Shown here piece after piece: positions 1 through 31,689 of a stretch of 64,000 nucleotides of DNA (the stretch's first letter is position 1; every line of letters begins with the position of its first letter). Source of the stretch: Henricia sp. BOLD:AAB3569 (lineage: Eukaryota > Echinodermata > Asteroidea > Spinulosida > Echinasteridae); the NCBI GenBank assembly GCA_037783545.1, contig JBBELK010000386.1:868001-932000 (forward strand), in the 5' to 3' direction. A program made the translations under genes and the position numbers. The notes beneath the pieces are model-generated. The model was not told the origin of the DNA and made no database searches. It saw only the letters and a program-made list of their open reading frames with translations.

Positions 1-3000
1 AGAAAGCGCTGGCCTATCAGATATGGATGTGGTACGTCAAGTTCTCAGTTATGAACCCTCCGTTCTATGGAAGTGGCAGACAGGTAAGTTCCTTATTTAT
101 ACAGTTTAAAAAAAAAAAATATCCTTAGTGAAAGATATAAGGAGGCAAAACATATTTTATCAGTCAGTAACTTGTTTGACCATCTCCTGTGGCAAGGCTG
201 ACTGCATCAGCCTTAAGAGCTGCCGAGGCAGAGTGCGCCATTCTGCCTGAAATGCCTCCCCGAGATTCTGTAATACTAGGGTTGCTTCGAGAGACATGCA
301 GACGCAGTATTTAACCCTGTCCCACCAGGTTTAATTAGGTCGCGAAAACCCAACAAAATTGGTTTTCTAAAAGCCCTTAACTGCAGGATTCTTCAAAAAA
401 CAGGAAATGTCACATTTTATTACTGTGGGAATCACTTTGTCACTTGGACCTGGAGGGAAATTACTGAAGCAGAACATCCTTGAAAGAGGTTCCAATGCAT
501 AGTTCCGAGATTGCCCAGTTAACCCCGCCCCTTAGATATTGTTGCTATGTGCTCACAAGCCATCGAAAAAAATGGCGAGACTACGTACAAAGCAACGGGA
601 CTCGGCATGGAAAGCACAGATTCATTGGAGAAAACTCAAAGGTATTTATGTTTTAGGGTCGACAGTTGCCGTAGCACACACTGAGCGAAAGGCTAGTAAT
701 GCAGGGATGACATATATTCATAAAAATGCGCTTTCCTACCTTTGAATAGCGAATCGCCCGACATTGAAACCAAAATTCACCCGGTCACTGGCGCATACAA
801 CATACAAACTGTATGGGCAAAAACATTGCGTGATTGTGATCGATGATTGCATCACTTTGACCTTTGTGGGCGCCGTCTGCTAGCTCTGTTGTGATTGGTC
901 GCGGGTTCGGCTTGATTGACAGGTCGGAACTATGCATTCCTCTATGTCCATTGAACTATGCAACTATTTAAAAAATCCCCTATAAACATATTTTTAGGTC
1001 TTAATCATTTTTTCTTCATTTTGTTTCTGATAATACAAGGCTCCTGTTAAACAAGGTAATTTGCAAAATCCCAAGGACCTCTTACAGTATTTTAATTTCA
1101 TCTCTTGCACAGTTCCATACTTATGCTGCATTCCTGTATGACGCGACCATCCTGTTTGCGAAAGCCTTGCATGCAGCCTTAGATGCCGGAGACAACCCCT
1201 ACGACGGACAAGCTATTGTCAGTCACATCTTGGAAACAGAATATCAAAGTAAGTCGTGTGGATGCATTAAACTTATATTGTAATGAGCAGAAAATCCATG
1301 CATAGTTGCATGGGTGTAATCTCAAAGACGTCTTTTACCTTGAGAAATTACAGGATGATTGATATACACATATGGACTGGCAATGAGGTCACTAGTGCAC
1401 GTCTATGTGCCCCTCGTGACTGTGAGTGACCACAAGAGGGTCCTATTTCCCTCGGGAAATAGGACCCTCTTGTGGTCACTCACAGTCCCTCGGAGCCCAT
1501 AGACATGCACTAGTGACCTCATTGCCAGTCCATATGTGTATATAGCACAGATAGTCGACTAGAGTCCCTCGAACGACAGATAATGTCCGTTGTTCGAGGG
1601 ACTCTAGTCGACTATAGGATTTACACTGCGGAGAGCGCATCTCACGTCTAGAATTATTTAAACTGCGACGACAAAAACTATCGTTGAGATTGCACGTGGA
1701 CAAACATTTTGGCTTAAAAAACGGTGTTGTAAGTATTTCTTTCCAATCATTTTCCAATCATGGAAATCTCAAACCATTGCAGGACACAACTAGGAGGACA
1801 TTTTTGGGTGTGATTCGAATTTCGAGGCAAAATGACAACAACCCGTAGGGAATGAATCATTCTGTCTATCCTGCGCGTTGCGGGTAAGATCTGAGAAGGG
1901 GTTAATTACTGTGCCAGACACCTATGATTTTCCTTGTTATGACATATAAATCATTAAAATGCAAAATTAAAGGCACAGGCTTGTCAGCAATGGCAATGCA
2001 CGCGCGCCAAATTCGTGCCACGAAATACGCAATACAAAATACTGATATGTTGGTGACTTACAATGTATCTCTAATCAAAATACCCTGTCAAATTAATTTT
2101 CATAGTAGTACACCATTTTTTGTATTTAAATTCATGCAGATTATTGCTCATTTACATGTTGCAGCATCATAATTAGTACTGGCATCTTGTCCCTTGGGCC
2201 TAGTTGTCCCTGGGCCTAGCTTCAAATTGGCATTGCCTATTTCTTCTAAAAATGCAATAAACCCTTTCATGGTTATCGACGCCATGTTGTTCACGGGGCA
2301 GTTCGAACACGCTTTGGTGTGTGCGTGAGCGGATCGTAGACGAATGCATTGTTAGGTCACTGTGCATTAGCTACGATCCGCGCACGCACACAGCAATGCG
2401 TGTTCTATGTGCCCCGTGAACAAGATGGCGTCGATAACCGTGAAAGGGTTTATTGATAGGTGCTGGCCAAGTTGGCCATTGGCCTCGGTGGCCTTGGTTA
2501 ATGTCAAAGGCTGGATTGGTTGCATTTCGGTCACAGTTGGTAATTTTTGTTCCTTCTGTATTCATAGATTGGAGATGGAGCCCACAGACTGGAGCTTGAT
2601 ATTACACACTACAAAAATGGACGTGTTGCCATGGATACTGAAAACACAGGAGAGGTGAGTTTTTGGCCATCTTCCAATTTCATTACAGTGGAAATTCTCT
2701 ATAATGAACACCATAAAGAACGTTCTGCTGCAATGAACATCACTCATGGCTCCTAACTACCTGCATTATAGTGCAACATGTTAATATATGCAGATTGTTG
2801 CTCATTTACATGTTACAGCATCATAATTAGTACTGACATCTTGGTGTACTATTCTTGCCTTAATCAAATTTATGCAAATCTATTTCTTATTTACATGTCA
2901 CTGCAGCATTCTAAATATACTTTTTTGCCCTTGCTCATGTTTATTCATGAATGGTGTCCCCCTGAAGCTGAGTTCCAGTTTGGTTTTTTAGAAGTCACAT

Positions 3001-3963
3001 AGTGGCCATGGTTTCATCATGATGTTACCCAGAATGCCCCAATACTTGCTCATGTTTATTCATGAATGGTGTTTCCCTGAAGCTGAGTTCCAGTTTTGTT
3101 TTTTGGAAGTCACATCATGGCCATGGTTTCATCAGGATGTTACCCAGAATGCCCCAATACACTGCTCCAAACACATTTTCTTCTTTTGCCCCTTTCTCAT
3201 GTTTATTCATGAATGGTGTTTCCCTGAAGCTGAGTTCCAGTTTTGTTTTTTGGAAGTCACATCGTGGCCATGGTTTCATCAGGATGTTACCCAGAATGCC
3301 CCAATACACTGCTCCAAACACATTTTCTTCTTTTGCCCCTTTCTCATGTTTATTCATGAATGGTGTTTCCCTGAAGCTGAGTTCCAGTTTGGTTTTTTAG
3401 AAGTCACATAGTGGCCATGGTTTCATCAGGATGCTACCCAGAATGCCCCAACACATTGAATGAAATGAGTTAATACTGACATCTGGGTGTATTATCCTTA
3501 GGCCAAAAAAAATAATAGTTCTGCTTCCGGTTTCCCGACCGACCCTATTTTTAGGCTGCGACCCTATTTTTTTTATCGGAAAAAAAATGAAAAAAATGGA
3601 AAAAAAAATGGAAAAAAACAAAAATGAAAAAAATAAATAAAAATAAAAAACCAGATGCCTCCATATGATTGTGCACAAAAACAATTGGCAAAAAAAAAAA
3701 AAATTCCCTACCTACCTACCCTATTTTGAAATGCCATGTAATCGGAAGCAGAACTATTTTTTTTTTTGGCCTTACCTTAATCAAAAACCTTGCTCATTTA
3801 CATACCTGTATTACTGCAACATGTTAATTTCCCCTCTTTTACACTTACATGTATAACGAAGAGAAAGTTAGATCCCAATCCTTTGTAAATTGTTTAATTT
3901 TTGATAATACAAGGTTTCTGTTATAACAAGGTAATCTACAAAGCCTTAACAGGGGTGGATCCA

Positions 3964-3998
<35 letters not shown>

Positions 3999-4603
3999 GC
4001 CTCCCTCTTTTAAAAAAAAACCACTTTTTGTGCACACTTTTTCTGCTTAAAGTGGTTAAATATTGCCCCAGATCGCACCACAGAGCATCTATAATCCATC
4101 TAGAAGCTGTTAGGGCTTCGCGCTATGCACTCGCTATTTCATTGTCATCAGCATTTCATGCTTAAAAATTTCACGCCGCCCCCCTTTTCAAAATCCTGGA
4201 TCCGCCCCTGCTTAAGGACCTCTTATTAACAGGGTTCAGCTGTATATTTTTGCATTTCATACATGCATCTGGTATAGAAAGATATCAAGCTCTATACTAT
4301 TTTTAATGCCCTTGAAATATTCTTTTTAAATACTGATTTTTCCATGAAAGGCAATGAATGAGCTAAGTTCTGTCGATACAACACATGATATGAACAGGTC
4401 ACAAATAATTGAGATATTGAAAACAAATTTCCAAACTTGTAAGGAGTATTAAAACTTTACATACTAATGCATTTCATTTGATTTCCTTTTAACAGGACCA
4501 GTTTGTGAAGCTCCCTTGTGTTGCTGCCCATGCTTGGCCTCACCTGGACTATTGGACTCCACGTACATGTCTCTCTCCTGTTGGAATTCATTTGTCATCA
4601 TGA
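1..4603 (+). CDS. Receptor guanylate cyclase-like ectodomain gene, left copy (3' exons)
   Basis: Visible exons are 1-83 (partial), 1,113-1,248, 2,575-2,654 and 4,496-4,603. They join in one frame and end at TGA 4,601-4,603. The peptide matches the membrane-distal to juxtamembrane part of the ANF_receptor ligand-binding domain of natriuretic peptide and sperm-peptide receptor guanylate cyclases. Features seen are a FHTYAAFLYDATILFAKAL helix, a LELDITHYKNGRVAMDT strand pair, and a terminal AWPHLDYWTPRTC segment like the WP...P.C end of such ectodomains. The stop follows ten residues later. Further exon-like blocks at 5,422-5,533 and from 5,974 look like 3' UTR. An alternative donor at 4,562 would skip the stop and join the 5,422 block in frame, so the C-terminus is not certain. 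The left copy reads AYQIWMWY where the right copy reads AYRIWMWY. No membrane, kinase-homology or cyclase domain is seen. In the family, the ectodomain binds an extracellular peptide. Here a secreted or decayed product is inferred. Confidence 0.72.
340..490 (+). repeat. Dispersed segment shared with 63,780-63,940
   Basis: This intronic segment and its right-arm mate at 29,265-29,405 resemble the reverse complement of 63,780-63,940. Shared blocks are AACCCAACAAAA, GGAAATGTC, TTGGACCTGGAGG and TTGAAGCAGAACA. It lies in an intron of the receptor gene and, at 63.8 kb, just upstream of the coiled-coil gene exons. The function is unknown; it could be an old transposon fragment. Confidence 0.55.
1362..1860. 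repeat. Fold-back element with two hairpins
   Basis: 1,362-1,544 is a long palindrome with ends ATATACACATATGGACTGGC and its complement. 1,551-1,616 is a second hairpin with stem ATAGTCGACTAGAGTCCCTC. The following 1,635-1,860 is related to the reverse complement of 58,740-58,990 (shared AACGGTGTTGTAAGTATT, GGACACAACTAGGAGGA, GAATCATTCTGTCT). The right-arm copy at 28,380-28,830 has the second half of the long palindrome shortened. This is probably one family of fold-back transposons together with 58.7-59.5 kb. Confidence 0.7.
1967..2032. mobile_element. Half copy of the AAAGGCACAGGCTCGTCAGC MITE
   Basis: One arm only of the hairpin MITE is seen in full at 30,311, 32,042 and 56,519 (TTAAAGGCACAGGCTTGTCA ... 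CGAAATACGC). The right-arm mate is 28,208-28,272. Confidence 0.6.
2255..2455. mobile_element. Hairpin MITE, 201 bp, left arm
   Basis: The terminal inverted repeats start CAATAAACCCTTTCATGG, and almost the whole element folds on itself. The same 201-bp element lies at 27,784-27,984 in the right arm, so it was present before the arms separated. No transposase is encoded. It lies in an intron of the receptor gene, just upstream of the 2,575 exon. Confidence 0.75.
2936..3445. repeat. 147-bp minisatellite, left arm
   Basis: The repeat starts CTCATGTTTATTCATGAATG at 3,048, 3,196 and 3,343, giving a 147-bp period, with degenerate edge copies at about 2,936 and 3,445. The long open frames across it are repeat translations. 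It lies in the receptor intron between the 2,575 and 4,496 exons. Confidence 0.85.
3950..4210. mobile_element. hAT-like MITE with CAGGGG(C/T)GGATCC ends and a 32-G run
   Basis: The termini are CAGGGGTGGATCCAGG and the inverse GGATCCGCCCCTG, of a type common in hAT-like non-autonomous elements of animals. Flanks share CTTAA. A run of 32 G at 3,964-3,995 follows the left end. The right-arm copy (25,921-26,142) is about 39 bp shorter and lacks the G run. Confidence 0.65.
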
Positions 4604-4659
4604 GCAGCTTTCAGGTATTGTAATATCAGCTTGTTACTACTTCTCTACATTAGGAATAG

Positions 4660-5310
4660 CTTGACCATTCCCAATATAATCTATCAGCACTTTTGCTGGG
4701 TGCTTTCCCAAGAACTGCGTCAACAATTTGTGCTTGGGTTGGGACTCGAACCCACAACCTTCTGCATTCTATAGCAGTTGCCTTAACTGCTCGACCTCTC
4801 AGTGTGCTGGTGTCATCGGGCCTGTTTGATTCTTGCAACAGTTGGTATCACAACTAATCCCTTGCTCTTTTCCGACATTTTATGAAAACGATTAAAAACA
4901 TCAAAATGTGTTTGGGTAGGACTCGAACCCATATCCTCCTACATTTTACAACAGTTGACTTGACCACTCAGTGAGCTGGTTTAAATCATGGAGCAGTTGG
5001 GACTTGAACCTCAATCATTCGATCACTCAGTGCGCTGGTGTCAAGGGGCCAGTTTGAATCATGGAGCAGTTGGTATCACAACCAATCCCCATGTCTCTTT
5101 TTTGACAAGATTTATCAACACTGTGCTCAGTGCTTTTCCAAGAACTCTGTTAAAACCTTGTGCTTAGATGGGACTTGAACCCACAGCATTCTAGAACAGT
5201 TGTCTTAACCACTCGCCCACTCAGTGTGCTGGTGTCGGAGTGTCAGTTTGAATCATTCATTAAAAACCTGTGCTTAGGTGGGACTCGAACCCACAGCCTT
5301 TTGTAAGGCA
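4660..5310 (-). repeat. Cluster of tRNA-like (Leu/Ser-type) SINE heads, left arm
   Basis: Four to five partial copies read on the minus strand as a GAG(T/A)GGT(T/C)(A)AG A-box region followed by a GGGTTCGAGTCCCA B-box (near 4,742, 4,925, 5,170 and 5,285). Spacing is irregular, and copies are separated by related unique tails. The structure suggests repeated insertion or duplication of a tRNA-derived SINE, not functional tRNAs. It lies in the receptor intron or 3' UTR region. Confidence 0.6.
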
Positions 5311-6119
5311 TATTTTTGTATTTTTTTTTCAAAAATTGTTAATTCGTATAGAAACTATTCACCTTTTAATTTCCTCTAAATTTGCAGTATTTTGTAACAT
5401 ATTTTCTTCATTTTTCACAGGTGACAAAGACTTGTGTGCGGCAAGCGATGTCGACCAGCTGAATATTTTCAAGATCTGTTTGTACTTTGGCAGACCTCAC
5501 TGCATCGTCTTCAGAGTGGCCAAGATTGACCCATGGTAAGTACCAATACACACGCATTACTGTATAAAGTATCTCGTCTCTGACAAATGACTAGCGATGC
5601 ATTGGGCCTTGAGGAGTTGCAGTTTACAGCATGGAAAAACATTTTCTGACTCGTCAAACATGGATTTCTTTCCACTACGGATGGGAATTTACGGTTAATC
5701 CAGAAACCGGTTTGCAATTCTTTCAAGTGTCGGCTAACACTAAAGATTGTTGCTGGTGTTTATAGATGCATGTGCAATGTACACAATACCCCTTGGCCCC
5801 CAAAATAATAATTGTACCTTTACATGTATCTGGTCAAAATTGAACAATGACCCCATTTAAATTTATTTCAGTTTTATGAAGTCATTACAAATAACCTTCT
5901 GAAAACTATTGTAAATTCTTTAAGTCTCATCCCTATTTTCCACAATGTTAAATTTAATATTTTTCCCCCACAGACATGTTGAAAGAATCAAGTCGACTGA
6001 ACCTTCTGCTCAACCTACCATAGTTCCTGAATCCAACAGTCAGTTCCCAAGTCTCAACAAAAACCTATCAGTTTGTAAACATTGAATCAACTCAACTGAT
6101 CCTTCCATCAGTTCCAAAG

Positions 6120-6490
6120 CATACAACTCTTCAGTGTCTAAAAAAATGACTATCAGTTTGTAAACAAACCAAAACTTGCTCCATTTATTCTTTCAAAAAA
6201 TGACTATCTGTTTGTAAACAAACCAAAACTTGCTCCATTTATTCTTTCAAAAAAATGACTGTTTGTAAACAAACCAAAACTTGCTCCATTTATTCTTTCA
6301 AAAAAATGACTATCTGTTTGTAAACAAACCAAAACTTGCTCCATTTATTCTTTCAAAAAATGACTATCTGTTTGTAAACAAACCAAAACTTGCTCCATTT
6401 ATTCTTTCAAAAAAATGACTATCTGTTTGTAAACAAACCAAAACTTGCTCCATTTATTCTTTCAAAAAATTACTGTCAGTTTGTAAACAT
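6120..6490. repeat. 54-bp tandem repeat with forkhead-like sites, left arm
   Basis: Six copies of a 54-bp unit containing TTTGTAAACAAACC and CTCCATTTATTC lie downstream of the receptor stop, probably in its 3' UTR. Each unit includes GTAAACA, the core of forkhead-factor binding sites. Further isolated TTTGTAAACA motifs occur at about 6,073, 6,478 and 6,570. The right arm has only three units. Confidence 0.8.
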
Positions 6491-6799
6491 TGACTTGTAC
6501 TAACAACCAATTGTATTTATTTCTCTTGTAGCATTGTTTAATGTACTTTAACAAATATAGTAAGTTGTTTGTAAACAATCTTATTTAAATAGTGTTATAT
6601 AGTTAAAGTAACTTCCAAAGTCAAAATAAAAGTCACTGACAACAAAAGTTTCATTTGTAAACAAGTCTCATTTTATTCTGTACTCCACTAAAGTAAACCA
6701 AGTAATATATGCAAGCAAAATGTTCATTAACTTAATTTATGCAAGGTCCTAATTGCTATTGTCTTTACAGATAGTCCAGGGTTCGGTGGTCCAAATTTA

Positions 6800-7040
6800 T
6801 AATTTGAAAATCGAACAGGGGTTGCCCCCTGTACGATTTTCTAACGTATTGAAATGGAGGTTTCCCTCCTCTACCTGTTAAAGAAAACATTAATAAAAAT
6901 GGTGTACAAAGAAATGCAATTAAACACAGAAAATCGAACCGGGGTTACCCCCTGTCCGATTTTCTAATGTATTGAAATGGAGGTTTCCCTCCTCTACCTG
7001 TTAAAGAAAACATTAATAAAAATGGTGTACAATTCAAATG
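6800..7040. repeat. 123-bp direct duplication with G/C-rich hairpin, left arm
   Basis: Two copies (starting about 6,807 and 6,930) each hold a hairpin with stem GAAAATCGNACAGGGG and a smaller GGAGG/CCTCC hairpin. They lie between the convergent 3' ends of the two genes and are kept in both arms (mate 23,290-23,525). A role in 3' end formation or insulation is only a guess. Confidence 0.7.
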
Positions 7041-7599
7041 ATTTATTAAACAAGAAAATATAGTTACAAAATAAGCGGTAACTGCAATCTCAAAACACAT
7101 CATTTGTCGAGAATCGTCTTTTCATGAGCAAACATTTTGACTTGGTGAATCAAGTCACAGATTGTCAGTAAATACATCATGACAAACTGAAAATGGACTT
7201 TCTCAAGTTTTCCATCTACATACCCGATTACGACGTACCAAGTCAAAAAGACAGTCACGAAAACATTTAAAAACTTATTCCGTCTGGAACTGGACTGCTT
7301 GCGGCCTCTGGAGATGCCGTTTCTGAAAAAGAAAAATAACAAAATATTAGTTTCAGATAAACACATTTTACAATGGCTTTCATTTCATACCAAAATTTAT
7401 TAATTTTCAGTTAATTTCTCTTTAGAACATTACTTGGTGCATTTGCCTACAACAATTTACTATTTGTACAAAACATGCATTTTAGCTGGAAATCATAGGT
7501 TTTTTATATGTGCTATCCAAATAATAAATTTGTTGACGGTAACATTTCAATATGATTTTTAGCTGAGAATTGGAATCCAATTAGTTTTACTAGTTAAAC

Positions 7600-8850
7600 T
7601 TTGAAAATGCACACAAACTTGTTCATGTTTTTAGATGATTATCAATTTATGGGTAAGAATTAAAGGCAGTATACATGATTGGTATCTCGAAAATCAGAAA
7701 TGTTCACAGATTTATGCCCAACTTACACAATATAAACATGACGACAGTAGAAAACTTCCCCTGAAATGGTTTTGTCTGAAGTGCTATAGTCTTTGAGAAA
7801 TGAGTCAAACAATTAGTTTTCACCTCATAAGACGAAAATTCAATTCGCCCCAAATTACTTCATTCATGCACTGTGATTCAGGGGAGAAATGACTGCAAAC
7901 TCTTTTTTTGACCGTTTTCTCAAAACTTAGACGGAGCTGGTTTTTGCTCAGGTTGGTTTTAATCATGAACATATTCAATCACACAGGGGGATAAAATTAT
8001 TTGTAACAGTTTACCAATTATGTATACTATCTTTAAGTTTATTTTTTCTTTTAAAATGACTTGAGCATTAGTGAGTACAAATTTAACCAAAAACCCAAAT
8101 TTAGTTTCATATTACAGCACACATTATCAACTTGCATATTGGTCATTTTTTAGAAATTTCGAAAGAGCTTCATACAATAAACGGTAGGAATTTAGCACTC
8201 GACCATCACTTTGTCCTTAAAGGCTTATTGTATCATTTGCAATGACCCAATTTTGTTTTTCATGAGTTGACAAGGAAAACCTTACTCAAAGTGTCGATAG
8301 CAATGGTAACAACAAACACCACATTTATTTCCGTCAAAAATGGTATTTCATGTTGGAAATTGACAACGAAGGTGGGTTTCTAAAAAAGTCCCGTGCACGG
8401 GACCTTTTCAAGGTTTTCGGAAGCATTGATGCATCTATGTAGCTAAAATTTCTTCAGGCTAGTTTACCAACATTCTTCCTTAGATATGTTACACTCTTCT
8501 TCTACGAATCTGCAAAAAGTTGTATCTTGCGAATGACACATAAGGCCTTTAAAAAACTTGTAACCATCAGAAATTGCACATTTGATAAGGAAACACCCCG
8601 AAAGTAAGTTAGATGTTTCACAGCCCAGGTCAAGTTTTTGCAAACTACAACTGGAAATCGGTGGCAGATCTAGGCTCACGGAAATTTCAAGTACTACCCT
8701 ATAGTGCCTGGATCCACTGCCGATTTCTAGTCATGATCACAAAAACTCAGCCCAAGCCGTCAGACACATTTTTCAAAAACAAAATTACATTTTTTGGCCA
8801 ATCCTCTGGTTTTCTGATGATTGAGTACTGAATTCTTTCCTCATAAAACC
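7600..8850. repeat. Block of dispersed repeats, left arm
   Basis: Two families are recognisable. At 7,640-7,870 is a segment beginning TTAAAGGCAGTATACATGAT (also at 22,490-22,680 and 55,940-56,140). At 8,215-8,470 is a segment with AGGCTTATTGTATCATTTGC and CAATGACCCA (also at 22,000-22,130, 31,075-31,240, 32,430-32,720, 50,870-51,090 and 56,239-56,370). The open frames here are not convincing genes. The block lies in the large intron of the small minus-strand gene. Confidence 0.6.
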
Positions 8851-10030
8851 AGGTTAATTTAGTTAAACTTTGAAAATGCACACAAACTTGTTTATGGTTT
8901 TTCAATGATTATTAATTTATTGGTAAGAATTAAGGGTTTTTTTCCCTATAAAAAAAAACAAACTAAATTTAAGAATTTGCTTAGAAACAATTTTTAGCCA
9001 TTCTCGTGTTTTGAGTACAAACTGCATGTTACACATTTCTTTTTCTACAAAAAAGAAAAGGTCAATTCATGTCACGTGGATTGCATTTGAGACAATAGAG
9101 AGGTTTTGCAAGGTGACGAATAGGAATACAGATAATGGTAACCGTTCACGTTGATGCGCTCACTGAACTGGGTTTCGCACTGTGTGACTACGTGCATACA
9201 TTCATCTGCTAAATATGCTCTGCGCTTGGCTTAATTTGTTTGCAGCAGATTTTCCTCACTTTCACGTGGGAATGATTCATTAAATTCGATCGGTATTCAT
9301 GGAAGATACATCACAAAGAAACAAAATGCATAAAACTTATTAATCCATCACGGAAAAAGCGAAAAATCTGCATAACCGGTATCCGTTTTTATGCTACGCG
9401 TATGGAGGCCGATAACCGTTGTTCACGCATATGAAAACATGTGTACTATACGGTTGCGCGTCACGAGACGCGCATAAAGTCATGACGTATCGGTATCCGT
9501 GATGGTGCGAAAACTTCCCTATTGATTAGTTCTTAACGTGGGTTCTAGATCTCCACCCAGGAGTAAATGGGTACCTATAAGGACAGTGAATGTTGATATG
9601 TTTGCTGGAATACATGTATTATAATGGCAGACAGTTCATGTTGTAACATGCAGTTTGTACTCCAATTTTAAACCACTTCAGCAAGTAAATTAATTCCTTT
9701 CGCACATATGCAATAAGTAAAGTTTGTTTAATCTACATGCCAAACATATTTGATTTTGTGCTGTACATTTACCAGCGTGTCTGAATGAAAATTGTGGCCA
9801 TGGATGCACAACATGGAACCTTCCGACTTTTGACACAGATGAGTAGGTGAAGTCTGTACGATGTATGTATTCATGTAGCCTTTTCGCAAATTCAACTTGA
9901 TGTGCACAGGTTTCAGGATGATATACGGATACAAATACGTTGCTATATTTTCTTCTTTAAAAGCATAGTGCAGGTAATTTGCAGAATGAGTTATAAGTAT
10001 CGTGGCAGTTTGGGTCATTAACTTACAAAC
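8850..10030. other. Intron sequence, no gene seen
   Basis: Poorly matched to the right arm. It includes an imperfect inverted sequence around 9,360-9,500 (CGGTATCCGTTTTTATGC region). No splice-bounded coding exon is convincing. Confidence 0.4.
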
Positions 10031-10330
10031 TTCGGGTGGAAACACCCGAAGGTTGTGGTTTTCAGACTACTTGAGGTACTTGTGCCCTTGAGCAAGGCAC
10101 TTTACCCCAATTGCTCCATCCTGTGGACATGGTGGATGGGATGTAAAGCCCTAGGTCTAGTATTGTGTAATGCATCTTAAAGATCCTAGAACATTCTTTC
10201 GGAAGAGAAGGGGAATTTTCCCAATGTCTCTGGCTTAGCCGCCACTTGCCGATCTACATGTATGTATCAATATTGAGGTGGTTCGCATTGAGATGTCAAG
10301 AGACATGAAATGCGCTATTAAAGGACACCA
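10030..10330 (+). repeat. SINE-like element with CTTGAGCAAGGCACTTTACC body, left arm
   Basis: It contains CCCTTGAGCAAGGCACTTTA, TGGATGGGATGTAAAGCC and a CTCTGGCTTAGCC end. This core is recognised from many marine invertebrate SINE-like repeats. A fuller copy with a tRNA-like head is at 52,551-52,832. The right-arm mate is 20,280-20,590. Confidence 0.6.
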
Positions 10331-11523
10331 GAAATGTATCAGTAAATTTATTTGTGTACACTGATTTTGCCACTGATTTCTCAAGCAATGAAATTGCGAA
10401 AAGGCCAATAATTTAGTTATTTTCCTAACTTAATTAGTTTTAAAATTATCAAAAACTAATGGTTTCCGGAAAATGCAGGTATTGATTTTCATCATCGCTC
10501 AAGCCAAGTTTCTTTCATGTCACTGCAGGGCCACATATTCCAATTTTGTTTTAGTTTTACTTTTTGCCACAAGATTTAAATTTGTAGGTTATAGTTCTTT
10601 CCTTCAAAATATACGTGGGGTTCATTACCATGCACGGACACCCAGGTTTTGCCTTTTTATGATAAATAAACCAAGTAAAAACACAAAATAATGTCTGGGC
10701 CAATTTTAATATGAAATTTAGATATCCAAACAGTCAGGTGTCATGTACTCGAATACCTTGGTTAATTCAAAAGGTTGTAGATGTGCCTTTGGGCAAGGCA
10801 TTTTACCATAAATTGCCTCTTCACACAGAACAATATAGGTACCTACTTTGGTGGTGAATGTATAAAACTCCAGTACTATTTATATCATTAACATCAACCT
10901 AAGAATTGCATGCCCAGATATTCATGGTAAAATTGGCTCCAAGCTCAAACAATGCATCTTTAAAGTTACAATAGAGACTATAGGCCTATGATACTTACAT
11001 TTAAACTGGACCCTTGGCTGGTGATCAAAAACCTGAGGAGAAAAGACAAAGTATTGCTGTTAATAAAATAAATAAAAGGTTCCCAAAACCCTAACCATGA
11101 TCATTCAAAATGGCCTCATTTTGTTGAATTATTGTTTTGTGGTAATTTTAATTGTTCCTATGTGGATTAAATAAGAGAATTCTAGTTAAGAGTTGAGAAG
11201 TTAATCAGAATTGTTTTCCTTTAAAATAACTTATGTCGCGCTTACGCAATGTATTTTCAATGTATAAGGGAAAAAATACCGGGAATTATTCCCAGTTGTT
11301 CGATGGGTTTAGTGCAGGAAAGCTTATATGCGATGTCCGACTTGTAAATTCTTTCCAAAATTACACTATCCACTATAAAATTCATTCTACGGTATGACTA
11401 CCGTCATACGGTAGTACACGACTCCATCCTGAAAGCGAAAACAACAATCAGATTAGAAGGATGGTTACTTGATTAAGCCCCATTATAAGCAAGGAATCAT
11501 AACAAGTTCATTTCACTCAACTC

Positions 11524-11672
11524 TAGACAAGGTTACCTCGGCTCGAAATTTTTCATGTGGTAATCTTTTAGACAAGGTTTATACCTCGGCTCGAAATTGT
11601 TCATGTGTATAGCCTAATCTTTTAGAGATTACCACATAAAAAATTCGAGCCGAGGTAACCTAAGCTTGTCTA
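11524..11672. repeat. Inverted repeat at the inner edge of the left arm
   Basis: TAGACAAGGTTACCTCGGCT is mirrored at 11,640-11,672, with a partial third copy between (GACAAGGTTTATACCTCGGC). It marks the start of the unmatched spacer. Confidence 0.65.
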
Positions 11673-12179
11673 ACCATAGAGCAAGGAACTGTTCCTTACC
11701 GACTATGGTCTAACTCAACCCACGTATTTTAAATCCCGAACCCCACATAACTACTTTTCCCTTCTTCAAGTAGGTAAAAGACCCAGAAAAAACTTTAATC
11801 TTTACCATTCCCACATATAGCATGAAAACATAGGAATAGGATAACCGTTACACTCGTAGTTAACGTACCTAAAAATCCCACTAGCTAGACGGTATATTGT
11901 CGAGGACGTCCCGTATTATCACCAGCATCTTGACCGGCCGTCGGCAGTTCGTCTGTTGCAAAATCTACCTGCTGCTTCCACGGTTCATTGCGTCCGGAAT
12001 GCGGTGCATGGTTACGTAACCGAAGAATGGAAACGCGGGCTTGGGCGACTCTGGACAGCATTTTCGTTTCCGATTCCAATCGATCGCAATTCTAGCTACC
12101 CGGAATCGATTCCATAAGTGGCACTGAGCGGTACTGAACATTCATGATATGATATCAGAACCAAGCCGGCGAGTACTCT

Positions 12180-12294
12180 TGCAAAACCCCATCTTCCTTT
12201 CGCAAGAGTCTTTGCTGCACACCGGAAACTCGGTAACTCGGTGTGCATAGCAGCGTGCAGCAAAGACCCTTGCGAAAGGAAGACGGCAAAACCC
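12180..12294. repeat. Imperfect palindrome in the spacer
   Basis: Arms contain GGAAACTCGG/CCGAGTT and CCTTTCGCAAGAGTCTTTGC with its complement GCAAAGACCCTTGCGAAAGG. No coding content. Confidence 0.65.
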
Positions 12295-17640: not shown

Positions 17641-17737
17641 CGCTCGAAAGCAGCCCTTGAAGGGACTTTGGACCAACTTAAAAATCAAGTAACCATCCAT
17701 GCCATCCTTCAAATCTGGTTGTTCTTTTCTCTTTCAG

Positions 17738-20700: not shown

Positions 20701-23056
20701 TATCAAGTTGAATTTGCAAAAGGCTACATGAATACGTACATCGTACAGACTTGACCTACTCATCTGTGTAAATAGTCCGAAGGTTCCATGTTGTGACAGG
20801 CCACAATTTTCATTCATACATGCTGGTAAATGTACAGCACAAACCCCCTTATTTTTGGCACATGCCAAGGTTAAAACAAACTTTACCAAGTGAATGAATT
20901 AAATTGCTGGAGTGGTTAAAATTGGAGGTCAGTTGAATTCCCTATTTTTAACTTGTGCTACAGACATTCCATTAATATGCTCTGTCCTTCCGTGTACAGA
21001 CTGCATGTTATAGTATGAACTTATGTAGGCCATTATTACAGCAACGTATCTTCAACATTCACTGTCCTTATACATGTAGGTACCCATTTACTCCTGGGTG
21101 GAGAGGAGCAAAGTGCATTGCTCATGGGCACATGAACCACAATCTGAACCCACATGAATTGAGCTTTTCGTTTTGTGGAAAGTGAAATGTGTAACATGCA
21201 GTTTGTGCTCTTGCATTTATAACGTGAAAAAAAACATCCTAAAATGGCTAAAAAGAAACCTTTCAAGAAAATTCTAAATTTTAACCACTCCTAAATTCGG
21301 GGTTTTTTTTGGTCAAATCTGCGCTCACTAGTGCTCGTCATTTTATAAGAACAAATACATTTAATTCTAACCTATAAATTGATAACTTAAAAACATAAAC
21401 AAGATTGTGTGCATTTTCAAAGTTTAACAAAATTAAACTAGTTTGAGGAAAGAATTTAGTACTCGATTATCACTTAGACCTGTAGAAAACTACAAAAAAA
21501 TGTTAAGGAAAATATCTGTCACAGAGCTTGGGCCGAGTTTTTGTGATCATGACTAGAAATCGGCAGTGGATCCAGGCACTATCTGGGTAGTGCTTGAAAT
21601 GTCCATGAGCCTGGGCTAGGTTTTTGTGATCATGACTAGAAATCGGCAGTGGATCCAGGCACTATCTGGGGGTAGTACTTGAAATTTCCGTGAGCCTAGA
21701 TCTGCCACCGATTTCCAGTTGTAGTTTGCAAAAACTTGACCTGGGCTGTTAAACATCTAACTTACTTTCGGGGTGTTTCCTTATCAAATGTGCAATTTCT
21801 GATGGTTACAAGTTTGTTAAAGGCCTTATGTGTCATTCGCAAGATACAACTTTTTGCAGATTTGTAGAAGAAGAGTGTAACATATCTAAGGAAGAATGTT
21901 GGTAAACTAGCCTGAAGAAATTTTAGCTACATAGATGCATCAATGCTTCTGAAAACCTTGAAAAGGTCCCGTGCACAGGACTTTTTTAGAAACCCACCTT
22001 CGTTGTCAATTTCCAACATGAAATACCATTTTTGACGGAAATAAATGTGGTGTTTGTTGTTACCATTGCTATCGAAACAAAATTGGGTCATTGCAAATGA
22101 TACAATAAGCCTTTAAGGACAAAGTGATGGTCGAGTGCTAAATTCCTACCGTTTATTGTATGAAGCTCTTTCAAAATTTATGAAAAATAACCAATATGCA
22201 AGTTGATAATGTGTGCTGTAATATGAAACTAAATTTGGGTTTTTGGTTAAATTTGTACTCACTAATGCTCAAGTCATTTTAAAAGAAAAAATAAACTTAA
22301 AGATAGTATACATAATTGGTAAACTGTTACAAATAATTTGATCCCCCTGTGTGATTGAATATATGCATGATTAAAACTAACCTGAGCAAAAACCAGCTCC
22401 GTCTAAGTTTTGAGAAAATGGTCAAAAAAAGAGTTTGCAGTCATTTCTCCCCTGAATCACAGTGCATGAATGAAGTAATTTGGGGCGAATTGAATTTGTC
22501 TTATGAGGTGAAAACTAATTGTTTGACTCATTTCTCAAAGACTATAGCACTTCAGACAAAACCATTTCAGGGGAAGTTTTCTACTGTCGTCATGTTTATA
22601 TTGTGTAAGTTGGGCATAAATCTGTGAACATTTCTGATTTTCGAGATACCAATCATGTATACTGCCTTTAATTCTTACCAATAAATTGATAATCATCTAA
22701 AAACATGAACAAGTTTGTGTGCATTTTCAAAGTTTAACTAGTAAAACTAATTGGATTCCAATTCTCAGCTAAAAATCATATTGAAATGTTCCCGTCAACA
22801 AATTTATTATTTGGATAGCACATATAAAAAACCTATGATTTCCAGCTAAAATGCATGTTTTGTACAAATAGTAAATTGTTGTAGGCAAATGCACCAAGTA
22901 ATGTTCTAAAGAGAAATTAACTGAAAATTAATAAATTTTGGTATGAAATGAAAGCCATTGTAAAATGTGTTTATCTGAAACTAATATTTTGTTATTTTTC
23001 TTTTTCAGAAACGGCATCTCCAGAGGCCGCAAGCAGTCCAGTTCCAGACGGAATAA
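17738..23056 (+). CDS. Small unrecognised spliced gene, right copy
   Basis: Three exons have good acceptors and donors: 17,738-17,778, 18,877-18,909 (followed by GTAAGT) and 23,009-23,056 plus a 3' UTR. They join in frame as a C-terminal tail of 39 residues ending VQFQTE before TAA. The tail is Gln/Arg-rich with no known domain. An AATAAA lies at about 23,284. The gene runs convergent to the receptor gene, and their 3' ends meet near 23.3-24.1 kb. The 5' exons are not identified and may lie in the satellite spacer, so the locus could be non-coding. A longer frame at 22,965-23,231 reads through the acceptor and is less likely. Confidence 0.4.
19160..19860. repeat. Inverted copy of 21,310-21,800 within the right arm
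   Basis: This block is the reverse complement of 21,310-21,800 and is absent from the corresponding place in the left arm. Inside it, an 83-bp tandem unit starting about GTCATGATCAC at 19,371, 19,454, 19,537 and 19,620 repeats four times. The 21.5 kb copy has two units and the left arm (about 8,720) has one. Confidence 0.75.
19951..19973. repeat. G run of 23
   Basis: An uninterrupted G tract in the right arm with no partner in the left arm at the mirror position. Length is likely unstable in sequencing. Confidence 0.9.
20280..20590 (-). repeat. SINE-like element, right-arm copy
   Basis: This is the mirror of 10,030-10,330, with GGGATGTAAAGCC and GAGCAAGGCACTTGACC read on the minus strand. 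Several substitutions separate the two copies, more than in the outer part of the arms. Confidence 0.6.
21310..21800. repeat. Local inverted repeat partner of 19,160-19,860
   Basis: Contains the 83-bp unit twice and the stretch TTGATAACTTAAAAACATAA mirrored at about 19,795. It corresponds to left-arm 8,600-8,950. Confidence 0.7.
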
Positions 23057-23289
23057 GTTTTTAAATGTTTTCGTGACTGTCTTTTTGACTTGGTACGTCG
23101 TAATCGGGTATGTAGATGGAAAACTTGAGAAAGTCCATTTTCAGTTTGTCATGATGTATTTACTGACAATCTGTGACTTGATTCACCAAGTCAAAATGTT
23201 TGCTCATGAAAAGACGATTCTCGACAAATGATGTGTTTTGAGATTGCAGTTACCGCTTATTTTGTAACTATATTTTCTTGTTTAATAAA

Positions 23290-23525
23290 TCGTACACCAT
23301 TTTTATTAATGTTTTCTTTAACAGGTAGAGGAGGGAAACCTCCATTTCAATACATTAGAAAATCGGACAGGGGGTAACCCCGGTTCGATTTTCTGTGTTT
23401 AATTGCATTTCTTTGTACACCATTTTTATTAATGTTTTCTTTAACAGGTAGAGGAGGGAAACCTCCATTTCAATACGTTAGAAAATCGTACAGGGGGCAA
23501 CCCCTGTTCGATTTTCAAATTATAA
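23290..23525. repeat. 123-bp direct duplication with hairpin, right arm
   Basis: This is the mirror of 6,800-7,040. It follows the AATAAA of the small plus-strand gene and precedes the 3' end of the minus-strand receptor copy. Confidence 0.7.
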
Positions 23526-23854
23526 ATTTGGACCACCGAACCCTGGACTATCTGTAAAGACAATAGCAATTAGGACCTTGCATAAATTAAGTTAATGAAC
23601 ATTTTGCTTGCATATATTACTTGGTTTACTTTAGTGGAGTACAGAATAAAATGAGACTTGTTTACAAATGAAACTTTTGTTGTCAGTGACTTTTATTTTG
23701 ACTTTGGAAGTTACTTTAACTATATAACACTATTTAAATAAGATTGTTTACAAACAACTTACTATATTTGTTAAAGTACATTAAACAATGCTACAAGAGA
23801 AATAAATACAATTGGTTGTTAGTACAAGTCAATGTTTACAAACTGACAGTAATT

Positions 23855-24030
23855 TTTTGAAAGAATAAATGGAGCAAGTTTTGGTTTGTTTACAAACAGA
23901 TAGTCATTTTTTTGAAAGAATAAATGGAGCAAGTTTTGGTTTGTTTACAAACAGATAGTCATTTTTTGAAAGAATAAATGGAGCAAGTTTTGGTTTGTTT
24001 ACAAACAGATAGTCATTTTTTTAGACACTG
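23855..24030. repeat. 54-bp tandem repeat with forkhead-like sites, right arm
   Basis: Three copies of the unit seen six times at 6,120-6,490, in mirror position in the presumed 3' UTR of the minus-strand receptor copy. Confidence 0.8.
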
Positions 24031-24854
24031 AAGAGTTGTATGCTTAGGAACTGATGGAAGGATCAGTTGAGTTGATTCAATGTTTACAAACTGATAGGTT
24101 TTTGTTGAGACTTGGGAACTGACTGTTGGATTCAGGAACTATGGTAGGTTGAGCAGAAGGTTCAGTCGACTTGATTCTTTCAACATGTCTGTGGGGGAAA
24201 AATATTAAATTTAACATTGTGGAAAATAGGGATGAGACTTAAAGAATTTACAATAGTTTTCAGAAGGTTATTTGTAATGACTTCATAAAACTGAAATAAA
24301 TTTAAATGGGGTCATTGTTCAATTTTGACCAGATACATGTAAAGGTACAATTATTATTTTGGGGGCCAAGGGGTATTGTGTACATTGCACATGCATCTAT
24401 AAACACCAGCAACAATCTTTAGTGTTAGCCGACACTTGAAAGAATTGCAAACCGGTTTCTGGATTAACCGTAAATTCCCATCCGTAGTGGAAAGAAATCC
24501 ATGTTTGACGAGTCAGAAAATGTTTTTCCATGCTGTAAACTGCAACTCCTCAAGGCCCAATGCATCGCTAGTCATTTGTCAGAGACGAGATACTTTATAC
24601 AGTAATGCGTGTGTATTGGTACTTACCATGGGTCAATCTTGGCCACTCTGAAGACGATGCAGTGAGGTCTGCCAAAGTACAAACAGATCTTGAAAATATT
24701 CAGCTGGTCGACATCGCTTGCCGCACACAAGTCTTTGTCACCTGTGAAAAATGAAGAAAATATGTTACAAAATACTGCAAATTTAGAGGAAATTAAAAGG
24801 TGAATAGTTTCTATACGAATTAACAATTTTTGAAAAAAAAAATACAAAAATATG

Positions 24855-25420
24855 CCTTACAAAAGGCTGTGGGTTCGAGTCCCACCTAAGCACAGGTTTT
24901 TAATGAATGACTGACACTCCGACACCAGCACACTGAGTGGGCGAGTGGTTAAGACAACTGTTCTAGAATGCTGTGGGTTCAAGTCCCATCCAAGCACAAG
25001 GTTTTAACAGTGTTGATAAATCTTGTCAAAAAAGAGACATGGGGATTGGTTGTGATACCAACTGCTCCATGATTCAAACTGGCCCCTTGACACCAGCGCA
25101 CTGAGTGATCGAATGATTGAGGTTCAAGTCCCAACTGCTCCATGATTTAAACCAGCTCACTGAGTGGTCAAGTCAACTGTTGTAAAATGTAGGAGGATAT
25201 GGGTTCGAGTCCTACCCAAACACATTTTGATGTTTTTAATCGTTTTCATAAAATGTCGGAAAAGAGCAAGGGATTAGTTGTGATACAAACTGTTGCAAGA
25301 ATCAAACAGGCCCGATGACACCAGCACACTGAGAGGTCGAGCAGTTAAGGCAACTGCTATAGAATGCAGAAGGTTGTGGGTTCGAGTCCCAACCCAAGCA
25401 CAAATTGTTGACGCAGTTCT
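24855..25420 (+). repeat. Cluster of tRNA-like SINE heads, right arm
   Basis: This is the mirror of 4,660-5,310, with B-box strings GGGTTCGAGTCCCA at 24,871 and 25,378 and variants at 24,974 and 25,202. Each is preceded by a GAGTGGTTAAG-like A-box. Confidence 0.6.
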
Positions 25421-25527
25421 TGGGAAAGCACCCAGCAAAAGTGCTGATAGATTATATTGGGAATGGTCAAGCTATTCCTAATGTAGAGAAGTAGTAACAA
25501 GCTGATATTACAATACCTGAAAGCTGC

Positions 25528-28500
25528 TCATGATGACAAATGAATTCCAACAGGAGAGAGACATGTACGTGGAGTCCAATAGTCCAGGTGAGGCCAAGCA
25601 TGGGCAGCAACACAAGGGAGCTTCACAAACTGGTCCTGTTAAAAGGAAATCAAATGAAATGCATTAGTATGTAAAGTTCTAATACTCCTTACAAGTTTGG
25701 AAATTTGTTTTCAATATCTCAATTATTTGTGACCTGTTCATATCATGTGTTGTATCGACAGAACTTAGCTCATTCATTGCCTTTCATGGAAAAATCAGTA
25801 TTTAAAAAGAATATTTCAAGGGCATTAAAAATAGTATAGAGCTTGATATCTTTCTATACCAGATGCATGTATGAAATGCAAAAATATACAGCTGAACCCT
25901 GTTAATAAGAGGTCCTTAAGCAGGGGCGGATCCAGGATTTTGAAAAGGGGGGCGGCGTGAAATTTTTAAGCATGAAATGCTGATGACAATGAAATAGCGA
26001 GTGCATAGCGCGAAGCCCTAACAGCTTCTAGATGGATTATAGATGCTCTGTGGTGCGATCTGGGGCAATATTTAACCACTTTAAGCAGAAAAAGTGTGCA
26101 CAAAAAGTGTTTTTTTTTTAAAAGAGGGAGGGCGCACCCCTGTTAAGGCTTTGTAGATTACCTTGTTATAACAGAAACCTTGTATTATCAAGAATTAAAC
26201 AATTTACAAAGGATTGGGATCTAACTTTCTCTTCGTTATACATGTAAGTGTAAAAGAGGGGAAATTAACATGTTGCAGTAATACAGGTATGTAAATGAGC
26301 AAGGTTTTTGATTAAGGTAAGGCCAAAAAAAAAAATAGTTCTCCTTCCGATTACATGGCATTTCAAAATAGGGTAGGTAGGTAGGGAATTTTTTTTTTTT
26401 TGCCAATTTTTTTTGTGCACAATCATATGGAGGCATCTGGTTTTTTATTTTTATTAATTTTTTTCATTTTTTTTTTTTTCCATTTTTTTTCTTCATTTGT
26501 TTCATTTTTTTTCCGATAAAAAAAATAGGGTCGCAGCCTAAAAATAGGGTCGGTCGGAAAACCGGAAGCAGAACTATTATTTTTTTTGGCCTAAGGATAA
26601 TACACCCAGATGTCAGTATTAACTCATTTCATTCAATGTGTTGGGGCATTCTGGGTAGCATCCTGATGAAACCATGGCCACTATGTGACTTCTAAAAAAC
26701 CAAACTGGAACTCAGCTTCAGGGAAACACCATTCATGAATAAACATGAGAAAGGGGCAAAAGAAGAAAATGTGTTAGGAGCAGTGTATTGGGGCATTCTG
26801 GGTAACATCCTGATGAAACCATGGCCACGATGTGACTTCCAAAAAACAAAACTGGAACTCAGCTTCAGGGAAACACCATTCATGAATAAACATGAGAAAG
26901 GGGCAAAAGAAGAAAATGTGTTTGGAGCAGTGTATTGGGGCATTCTGGGTAACATCCTGATGAAACCATGGCCATGATGTGACTTCCAAAAAACAAAACT
27001 GGAACTCAGCTTCAGGGAAACACCATTCATGAATAAACATGAGAAAGGGGCAAAAGAAGAAAATGTGTTTGGAGCAGTGTATTGGGGCATTCTGGGTAAC
27101 ATCCTGATGAAACCATGGCCATGATGTGACTTCCAAAAAACAAAACTGGAACTCAGCTTCAGGGAAACACCATTCATGAATAAACATGAGCAAGTATTGG
27201 GGCATTCTGGGTAACATCATGATGAAACCATGGCCACTATGTGACTTCTAAAAAACCAAACTGGAACTCAGCTTCAGGGGGACACCATTCATGAATAAAC
27301 ATGAGCAAGGGCAAAAAAGTATATTTAGAATGCTGCAGTGACATGTAAATAAGAAACAGATTTGCATAAATTTGATTAAGGCAAGAATAGTACACCAAGA
27401 TGTCAGTACTAATTATGATGCTGTAACATGTAAATGAGCAACAATCTGCATATATTAACATGTTGCACTATAATGCAGGTAGTTAGGAGCCATGAGTGAT
27501 GTTCATTGCAGCAGAACGTTCTTTATGGTGTTCATTATAGAGAATTTCCACTGTAATGAAATTGGAAGATGGCCAAAAACTCACCTCTCCTGTGTTTTCA
27601 GTATCCATGGCAACACGTCCATTTTTGTAGTGTGTAATATCAAGCTCCAGTCTGTGGGCTCCATCTCCAATCTATGAATACAGAAGGAACAAAAATTACC
27701 AACTGTGACCGAAATGCAACCAATCCAGCCTTTGACATTAACCAAGGCCACCGAGGCCAATGGCCAACTTGGCCAGCACCTATCAATAAACCCTTTCACG
27801 GTTATCGACGCCATCTTGTTCACGGGGCACATAGAACACGCATTGCTGTGTGCGTGCGCGGATCGTAGCTAATGCACAGTGACCTAACAATGCATTCGTC
27901 TACGATCCGCTCACGCACACACCAAAGCGTGTTCGAACTGCCCCGTGAACAACATGGCGTCGATAACCATGAAAGGGTTTATTGCATTTTTAGAAGAAAT
28001 AGGCAATGCCAATTTGAAGCTAGGCCCAGGGACAACTAGGCCCAAGGGACAAGATGCCAGTACTAATTATGATGCTGCAACATGTAAATGAGCAATAATC
28101 TGCATGAATTTAAATACAAAAAATGGTGTACTACTATGAAAATTAATTTGACAGGGTATTTTGATTAGAGATACATTGTAAGTCACCAACATATCAGTAT
28201 TTTGTATTGCGTATTTCGTGGCACGAATTTGGCGCGCGTGCATTGCCATTGCTGACAAGCCTGTGCCTTTAATTTTGCATTTTAATGATTTATATGTCAT
28301 AACAAGGAAAATCATAGGTGTCTGGCACAGTAATTAACCCCTTCTCAGATCTTACCCGCAACGCGCAGGATAGACAGAATGATTCATTCCCTACGGGTTG
28401 TTGTCATTTTGCCTCGAAATTCGAATCACACCCAAAAATGTCCTCCTAGTTGTGTCCTGCAATGGTTTGAGATTTCCATGATTGGAAAATGATTGGAAAG

Positions 28501-31500
28501 AAATACTTACAACACCGTTTTTTAAGCCAAAATGTTTGTCCACGTGCAATCTCAACGATAGTTTTTGTCGTCGCAGTTTAAATAATTCTAGACGTGAGAT
28601 GCGCTCTCCGCAGTGTAAATCCTATAGTCGACTAGAGTCCCTCGAACAACGGACATTATCTGTCGTTCGAGGGACTCTAGTCGACTATCTGTGCTATATA
28701 CACATATGGACTGGCAATGAGGTCACTAGTGCATGTCTATGGGCTCCGAGGGACTGTGAGTGACCACAAGAGGGGAGCACATAGACGTGCACTAGTGACC
28801 TCATTGCCAGTCCATATGTGTATATCAATCATCCTGTAACTTCTCAAGGTAAAAGACGTCTTTGAGATTACACCCATGCAACTATGCATGGATTTTCTGC
28901 TCATTACAATATAAGTTTAATGCATCCACACGACTTACTTTGATATTCTGTTTCCAAGATGTGACTGACAATAGCTTGTCCGTCGTAGGGGTTGTCTCCG
29001 GCATCTAAGGCTGCATGCAAGGCTTTCGCAAACAGGATGGTCGCGTCATACAGGAATGCAGCATAAGTATGGAACTGTGCAAGAGATGAAATTAAAATAC
29101 TGTAAGAGGTCCTTGGGATTTTGCAAATTACCTTGTTTAACAGGAGCCTTGTATTATCAGAAACAAAATGAAGAAAAAATGATTAAGACCTAAAAATATG
29201 TTTATAGGGGATTTTTTAAATAGTTGCATAGTTCAATGGACATAGAGGAATTGGAACCTCTTTCAAGGATGTTCTGCTTCAGTAATTTCCCTCCAGGTCC
29301 AAGTGACAAAGTGATTCCCACAGTAATAACATGTGACATTTCCTGTTTTTTGAAGAATCCTGCAGTTAAGGGCTTTTAGAAAACCAATTTTGTTGGGTTT
29401 TCGCGACCTAATTAAACCTGGTGGGACAGGGTTAAATACTGCGTCTGCATGTCTCTCGAAGCAACCCTAGTATTACAGAATCTCGGGGAGGCATTTCAGG
29501 CAGAATGGCGCACTCTGCCTCGGCAGCTCTTAAGGCTGATGCAGTCAGCCTTGCCACAGGAGATGGTCAAACAAGTTACTGACTGATAAAATATGTTTTG
29601 CCTCCTTATATCTTTCACTAAGGATATTTTTTTTTTTTAAACTGTATAAATAAGGAACTTACCTGTCTGCCACTTCCATAGAACGGAGGGTTCATAACTG
29701 AGAACTTGACGTACCACATCCATATCCGATAGGCCAGCGCTTTCTTGGGTCCTTTTGGAGTCACGATCATCACCGACTCAAACGCCTTGGATGCTTTCTC
29801 GTCTTCGTAAATTCCCCAACCAAGGTCTGGATGAGAACAATCACCATGGAAATATAATAAATATAGATTGAGACACATATATGCTCATCGGGATTCAAAC
29901 CTGAGACCTTTGACACACCAGGCAGATGCTCTACCAGCTGAGCAATGAGGCACAGTTGTATACTTCCTTTAGGTTTTCCCCTAGACTTCTGACACACTGG
30001 GCAGATGCTCTACCAGCTGAGCTATGAGGCACAGTGGTATAATCCTTCAGGTTTCCCCCCAAGACCTCCGACTCACCAGGCTGATGCTCTACCAGCTGAG
30101 CTATGAGGCACAGTGGTATACTCCCCCAGGTTTTCCCAAAGACTTCTGACACACTGAGCAGATGCTCTACCAGCTGAGCTATGAGGCAGTGGTATACTCC
30201 CTCAGGTTTCCCTCGAGACCTCTGACACACCATGCAGATGCTCTGTCAACTGACCTAAAAGGCACAGTGGTATACTGTATTGTATACTACAATTTGTAGC
30301 ATGTTGTTCCTTTAAAGGCACAGGCTCGTCAGCAATGCGCGTGGCCAAATTCGTGCTACGAAATACGTAGCTCCATGCCTTTGCTATGGAGCTGCGTATT
30401 TCATGGCACGAATAATTGGAGTGCACGCATTGCTGATGAGCCTGTGCCTTTATTAAAGTAAAAGAATTTTTAAAAAGGGCATTTTACTTACATTTATTGC
30501 TGTGCCAGTTCTGTGTGGTCCGCATTTTGTGGTCAATTGCAGTGCCAATAATCGCATAATCGCCATTATTAGGCCCTTGATCGTAAGCGGCGAGGGCGAA
30601 ACTGCGCAACTCGTACACTTCCCCGAAAAACACGTAGACTGCAGAAAAAAATAAATCAAAGAAAATCAAAACTGTTGCTAGTCTCTTTACAGTAAAAATA
30701 TGACAGTGAGGTTTAAAAGGTTTATTTTAAGGTAAAGTATCCTACTTAAGGGAATTTTATTATGGTTCATACTTCTTGTGGTTTCCCTTGTACGCTTGAT
30801 TATGCCCGGGAAAGGATTGGACGTGTTGCTGTACGGGACGAAGCCAGTTTCAAAGATCTCTTCGTGTTGCACGGTGATGTTGTTCAGTTGAAACTTCTTG
30901 GAGACAACTCGGTATACCTGCTGCCACAGTGTGTGATTTCGAAGGACTACGGTCACCTTTTGCCCAGAGGAAAGAAATATAGGAATAAGTTAAAGTAAAG
31001 CATGAGATACATTTTCACTAAGGTATTTTTTCCTAATGCTGTAATTAAATGCAGACCTAACTTGCAGCTTAAAGGCACAATGTATCATTTGCAATGACCC
31101 AAAAATGTTACTTCATGAGTCGACTTTAAAAACATTCAAAGTACCAATGGTAACAAATACCACTTTAATTTGTTTCATTTCACAATGGTACATTTTTGTA
31201 CGAAAATAACAATTGAAAGTGGTTTTTAATAAATGAATGCACACACTCACTTTTATAGCATTCATCCAACACAAAAACCATCATTACGCATGGAGTGTTG
31301 GAGCATTGCTGCTCCTAATTTCTGCAGGTTAGGTTACCAACATTCTTCTTTTAATTAGATGTTTCATGCTAATCTTACAGGATTTTATCAATATGTAACA
31401 TTTACCTGATCCCAGTTGAACATCTGCCCACGTAGCCCTGCCGCCAATAGTCGGCGATGGCATCCAACCCCACATTGGTGTTGCATTGGGAATCCGTCCA

Positions 31501-31676: not shown

Positions 31677-31689
31677 TGTAGAAGCCGCC

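Follow-up and report, generated by a model that had tools for sequence, protein, structure and literature searches.

Organization of the inverted repeat and its receptor-like gene

The window analyzed here is a stretch of 64,000 nucleotides (C386:868001-932000) from an assembly of 740.7 Mb in 2104 contigs. All coordinates are given in window numbering, with negative values lying to the left of the window start. A preliminary description of this DNA had proposed a giant inverted repeat with arms of more than 11 kb, reaching 29745 on the right and enclosing a 6.3-kb spacer. Self-BLAST of the window bore out the repeat and, once 30 kb of left flank had been added, placed its outer ends at -969 (outside the window) and 30715, giving arms of ~12.1 kb, longer than proposed. 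The right end at 29745 was merely the mirror of the window edge, and the spacer is revised to a non-homologous middle of 7.6 kb (11137-18771), or to ~5.0 kb if measured between the ends of two repeat types at 12682 and 17660 (Table 1).

We found that the arms consist of two very different parts. Collinear inverted BLAST matches of 97.4-99.6% connect window 1-8757 with 29745-21609, and over the entire outer tract (-969..8757 versus 30715..21609) identity is ~99.5% with small repeat zones excluded. A kilobase-long match at 99% cannot be chance. Further inward, three BLAST patches at 80-84% connect 8672-11136 with 18772-21612. The drop occurs in a single step at 8757. In 500-bp bins of a multiple alignment, which is unreliable past 10500, the left and right arms of C386 are 95.1-100% identical from -1000 to 8500 and 75.6-88.1% identical from 8500 to 10500, in agreement with the earlier view of near-identical outer arms and a patchy inner part; an insertion leaves bin 500-1000 with too few sites in common. 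Kilobase-long inverted arms at ~99% or more, as expected of a palindrome, are thus found in the outer 9.7 kb but not in the inner 2.4 kb. The arms carry their content in mirror order, as had been described, but not every insertion is shared: a 441-bp insertion is confined to the C386 left arm and is absent from the other three arms considered below and from the related contigs C620 and C164. Elsewhere in the window there are smaller inverted repeats of ~150-550 bp with arms matching at 87-99.5% (12688-12872, 45838-45990, 58945-59497 and 59540-60032), as well as a 260-residue open frame on the minus strand (61995-62777) that appears coiled-coil-like by eye.

Table 1. Positions of the features described in the text, in window numbering.
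Feature	Position	Strand	Remarks
Left arm, outer tract, R-type	1..8757, extends to ~-969	+	Mirror of 21609-30715
5'-truncated receptor copy, left arm	1..2753, starting outside window	+	e3 -896..-762, e4 -99..83, e5 1095-1247, e6 2589-2753
441-bp MITE-like insertion	496..936	.	Inverted ends; AT duplication by eye
Inner joint, hybrid 83-bp minisatellite unit	8671..8757	+	Sequence inspected by eye; also in C451
Left arm, inner part: 3' part of dispersed element, C3-type	8758..12682	+	3' end at 12682
Middle with satellites	12683..17659	.	277-bp units 13998-14865; 18-bp units 15317-15703
Palindrome of 185 bp, near-perfect	12688-12872		Inside middle
Right arm, inner part, R-type	17660..21608	-	97-99% to C620; 76-88% to left inner part where alignable
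Right arm, outer tract, likely donor	21609..30715	-	
Receptor-like coding segments, right copy	27486..31676	-	e1 31676-31596, e2 30965-30774, e3 30642-30508, e4 29845-29663, e5 29092-28940, putative e6 27650-27486
Right flank	30716..55037	.	Collinear in blocks with C620 at least this far; left flank without collinear counterpart

The preliminary description had also placed two convergent genes in each arm. We recognized one, with a predicted natriuretic-receptor-like ligand-binding domain; the second was not recognized when 20 single stop-free reading frames were compared with Pfam. The ANF_receptor family was matched by one of ten frames at 18 bits, below its cut-off of 25.4, and the other hits among the 20 frames, which reached about half the curated cut-off or little more, were treated as chance. 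When the right-copy exons were joined, they matched PDB 1jdn with an E value of 0.0029 over query residues 7-222, within exons 2-5. Donor sites could be read after exons 4 and 5, and exon 6 was assigned from its position and open frame only; it is frame-shifted in the C3, C164 and C501 copies. A tblastn search for a kinase-like/cyclase continuation with an approximate human query yielded nothing with an E value of 1 or below in four of six stretches, with best E values of 0.14 and 0.24 in the other two.

Exons 1 and 2 of the right copy fall outside the inverted repeat, and the left copy lacks both: because the outer joint falls between exons 2 and 3, it comprises exons 3-6 only. Exons 3-5 gave 24 matches in all, including both arms on both haplotype contigs (see below), a C620 copy with one stop in exon 4, C164 copies near 1286 kb (exons 3-5) and 1776 kb (exons 4-5), and one weak match on C777. 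Exon 3 alone was matched at C515:485693, C386:498211 and C451:1332994. At the last two sites we also noticed a partial copy of a right-flank segment together with exon 3, in opposite orientation and ~400 kb away (C386:475267-477370 and 498211, corresponding to C451 positions 1353046 and 1332994).

The inverted repeat is present on two collinear contigs

From -29985 to 51945, C386 has a collinear counterpart on another contig, C451, which runs in reverse orientation; the C451 stretch compared ends at 51945. This collinearity comprises 22 main blocks at 92.2-99.3% identity with insertions between them, one of ~7 kb. The far right of the window is also matched on C451, and the two contigs share an additional segment at a distance of 445 kb (C386) and 455 kb (C451). 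Because the collinearity includes these distant parts, C386 and C451 are best read as haplotypes, and we denote their arms left A and right A (C386) and left B and right B (C451). C451 carries the same inverted repeat, with the same outer joint and, apart from a few bases, the same inner joint. Its left and right arms are 94.9-100% identical per 500-bp bin from -1000 to 8500, and in the bins from 8500 onward the left arms of the two contigs are 99.2-100% identical to each other.

The preliminary description had offered two readings of the arms: gene-conversion-like copying of the outer part, which holds up below, or a false palindrome, in which two haplotypes of one locus have been joined in assembly (a foldback chimera would have the same effect). 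The false palindrome draws some support from the facts that the two haplotypes seem to be kept apart in the assembly and that the arms differ no more than alleles do. It is nevertheless very improbable, because the same structure and the same left-arm joints occur on C386 and C451 and because the left and right flanks are unrelated. A reverse-complement comparison of the two C386 flanks revealed no collinear homology, only ten matches of 80-278 bp, and two left-flank queries matched C386 and C451 only, repeats of up to ~350 bp aside. The 7.6-kb non-homologous middle and the chimeric arm described below also speak against it, as does the contig itself, which is 1.85 Mb long and extends for hundreds of kilobases on either side of the inverted repeat. 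We found neither homologous flanks nor absence from the other haplotype, two signs that would mark an artefact. The inverted repeat is probably a true chromosomal structure and not an assembly mistake.

The inner left arm is part of a dispersed element

When the inner left arm was used as a query, it matched at least 38 other places, with the best piece in each at 93-97% identity (40 candidates were scored, with the arm itself and its C451 counterpart excluded, so the true number may be higher; certain pairs of places may be allelic). Of the 38 other places matching 11700-12682, 26 end exactly at 12682. One copy (C3:333000-349700) shows patchy collinearity with window 2474-12648 over ~16.6 kb, although the match is uneven: identity is 96.0% over 8672-11385, 90-97% over 11401-12648 (90-91% over 11524-12648) and 85-95% in the outer blocks. 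At their 5' ends, many copies of the element have an inverted duplication. No match to a 5' piece of the C3 copy (2319-2943 of the C3-oriented stretch) was found to the left of the outer joint. The dispersed family also includes an exon-6-like piece, which is frame-shifted in the C3 copy.

The right arm has other relatives. C620 is collinear in blocks with the window from 17660 to at least 55037, and C164 is collinear with much of 17660-44675. These two contigs could be alleles of a single locus; one far-flank piece from each was found once only, repeats aside. We found no inverted match longer than 534 bp within 60 kb of C620 or within the 30 kb of C164 examined. C164 has another copy ~490 kb away in the opposite orientation. 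Because the right arm and its flank are continuous with C620, which shows no such inverted match in 60 kb, the right side is the likely donor. Over 8760-10400, the divergence of right A is 0.29% to C620 and 1.3% to right B, and that of the left arm is 16.5% to both right A and C620.

Judged by these alignments, the inner left arm belongs to the dispersed ~16.6-kb element rather than being a right-arm copy that has decayed; the right arm itself belongs to a relative, ~16% diverged. In the earlier view, the inner part came from the same duplication as the rest and had merely been converted less; instead, it represents another repeat subfamily, and a minisatellite unit contains the point at which it joins the outer tract. 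Falling identity within the arms of a palindrome can therefore mean a switch of repeat subfamily and need not mean decay.

The joints of the chimeric left arm

The left arm is thus a chimera, and its two joints can be read to within tens of bases on two collinear contigs. At the inner joint lies one 83-bp minisatellite unit whose start, by eye, resembles the first unit of the R-type sequence and whose end resembles the last unit of the C3-type sequence, on both C386 and C451. The outer joint consists of a tRNA-like satellite (-1214..-985), then 22 bp, then R-type sequence. The 22-bp piece has no counterpart in any of the other loci fetched for comparison.

The satellite is built of a 78-80 bp tandem repeat that presumably resembles part of a tRNA; further arrays lie at 29904-30276, 54799-55363 and 56785-57004, and in the C3 copy the repeat has expanded to ~3 kb. 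The left array matches that of the C3 copy in the same orientation at up to 95%. We considered whether it could be a remnant of the original element, but this idea has little support, as the adjoining sequence does not match the C3 copy.

These joints bear on how the copy was made. The right arm could have been copied in inverted orientation by replication template switching, without classical break repair, in a process of the MMBIR/FoSTeS type. The inverted orientation of the copy, the short extra sequence at the outer joint and the tandem repeats that adjoin both joints agree with such a process. The inner joint, on the other hand, is in register within homologous minisatellite units and so points to homology-guided exchange, although this is not decisive. 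We regard template switching as rather improbable; it is a variant of the explanation favored below, and the odds of the two overlap.

Variation among the four arms

We compared left A, left B, right A and right B site by site. From -969 to 8690, 89 of 8120 gap-free sites vary. At 81 of these a single arm differs from the other three; 4 distinguish both left arms from both right arms, 3 unite left A with right B, and 1 splits the haplotypes (position 2983, which adjoins a T run and was left unused). Three of the 4 left-versus-right sites are no more than 60 bp from the outer joint. Left/right differentiation is thus nearly absent in the tract, which supports the gene-conversion-like copying of the outer part put forward in the preliminary description. 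Left and right are split at 185 of the 1184 sites of the inner part; only these splits are quoted there, as another 90 sites private to right B and 8 with more than two states are put down to misalignment after ~10.5 kb.

For distance counts in the tract, five zones were masked (495-937, 2920-3500, 3570-4000, 6090-6500 and 6770-7040). The distances are 0.17% for left/left, 0.20% for left A/right B, 0.35% for left B/right B, 0.50% for left A/right A, 0.56% for left B/right A and 0.57% for right/right, with 0.74-0.81% to C620. Arms of the tract are thus no more different than alleles (left/right 0.20-0.56%), which is not the case in the inner part. The totals fit a single copy from a right haplotype like B that would be younger than the split of the right alleles.

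A few sites suggest that this was not the only exchange. Derived states common to left A and right B occur at 2882, 8144 (where left B has a gap), 8151 and 8160, the last with polarity taken from C620 alone because C164 differs from C620 there. Such crosswise variants suggest at least one later exchange, although the sites are few, occupy two places, and could also be generated by mis-phasing or by polishing between near-identical arms. The donor is less certain at 7500-8690, since left A differs from C620 (8 of 1185 sites) about as much as it does from left B (7/1183) or right B (7/1182), and right A is closer to C620 (8/1147) than to right B (21/1144). Loci other than the two arms may therefore have taken part in the exchange.

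The near-absence of sites separating left from right and the crosswise sites could alternatively reflect an old inverted duplication in which repeated arm-to-arm gene conversion has kept the outer 9.7 kb alike, as is known from palindromes. This account overlaps with the one that we favor. However, the inner left arm belongs to a dispersed subfamily and does not represent drifted right-arm sequence, one recent copy already fits the distances, and the tract extends ~3.4 kb past the point at which homology starts in the C3 copy (2474), a limit partly offset by short matches in C158, C40 and C253 out to ~1866. We consider repeated conversion possible but unlikely.

A model for the origin of the left arm

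The explanation that we favor, with a probability of about 0.68, is that the left arm became chimeric through one recent right-to-left, homology-guided copying event, in a true structure that arose in at least two steps. First, the ~16.6-kb dispersed element would have landed in inverted orientation near a receptor locus with a diverged relative of that element. Repair of a break at or close to the element, or a template switch by a replication fork, would then have used the right locus as the model. Copying would have started at the common 83-bp minisatellite and run outward for ~9.7 kb through receptor exons 6 to 3, going past the homology seen in most element copies. It would have closed in the intron before exon 3, beside the tRNA-like satellite, with ~22 bp of unplaced sequence. 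The product would be a left arm that is R-type outside and element-type inside, in which receptor exons 3-6 are duplicated and exons 1 and 2 are not. That there was a break, that copying ran from right to left and that ends were joined are inferences. The explanation is weakened at 7500-8690, where the left arm stands no farther from C620 than from the right arm, and by the uneven match to the C3 copy, which also has a 5' piece with no match left of the outer joint.

Under this model, a dispersed repeat can be the site at which an inverted gene duplication forms, and the duplication can later resemble a palindrome that is conserved in its outer part. More tentatively, elements carrying a diverged piece of a host gene might act as landing pads, in which minisatellite homology starts one-ended copying that continues beyond the element and brings in exons of the parent gene. 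This generalization is doubtful at present, but if it is true, a mobile repeat can seed an inverted gene duplication without moving the gene itself. If other family members, in at least 38 places, show the same, repeat-anchored one-ended copying would be a testable route of gene duplication.

Comparison with known systems

The predicted ligand-binding domain is like that of the natriuretic peptide clearance receptor (PDB 1jdn), and no kinase-like or cyclase domain was found in the stretches searched here. The clearance receptor itself is not known to have kinase-like or cyclase domains.

Among titles and the opening lines of abstracts we found no published account of the arrangement described here, which is weak evidence. 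Sex chromosomes carry well-known large palindromes whose arms are more than 99% identical and are kept so by gene conversion (PMC3723533, PMC8981503, PMC7023750). Those of mammals, such as P6 of the human Y, resemble this locus in their large inverted arms more than 99% alike and in their multi-kilobase conversion tracts (PMC3723533, PMC8981503). Unlike them, this locus has a chimeric arm, identity that ends inside a minisatellite and ~9.7 kb of alike sequence, and both collinear contigs carry it. Palindromes of the willow W chromosome are similar in that their ~20-kb arms average more than 99% identity, with one spacer of 3.6 kb, evidence of gene conversion and internal transposons; they differ in belonging to a plant sex-determining region and in having four related arms, whereas here there are receptor exons and a dispersed animal repeat (PMC7023750).

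Break-induced replication and template switching offer a second parallel: one end alone finds homology, and template switches change copy number (PMC3937135, PMC2583991). Unlike in those studies, the process here is deduced from two joints rather than observed. The locus clearly illustrates a type of DNA copying that is already known. Its outer part resembles known sex-chromosome palindromes, and the chimeric arm with its minisatellite joint sets it apart from them.
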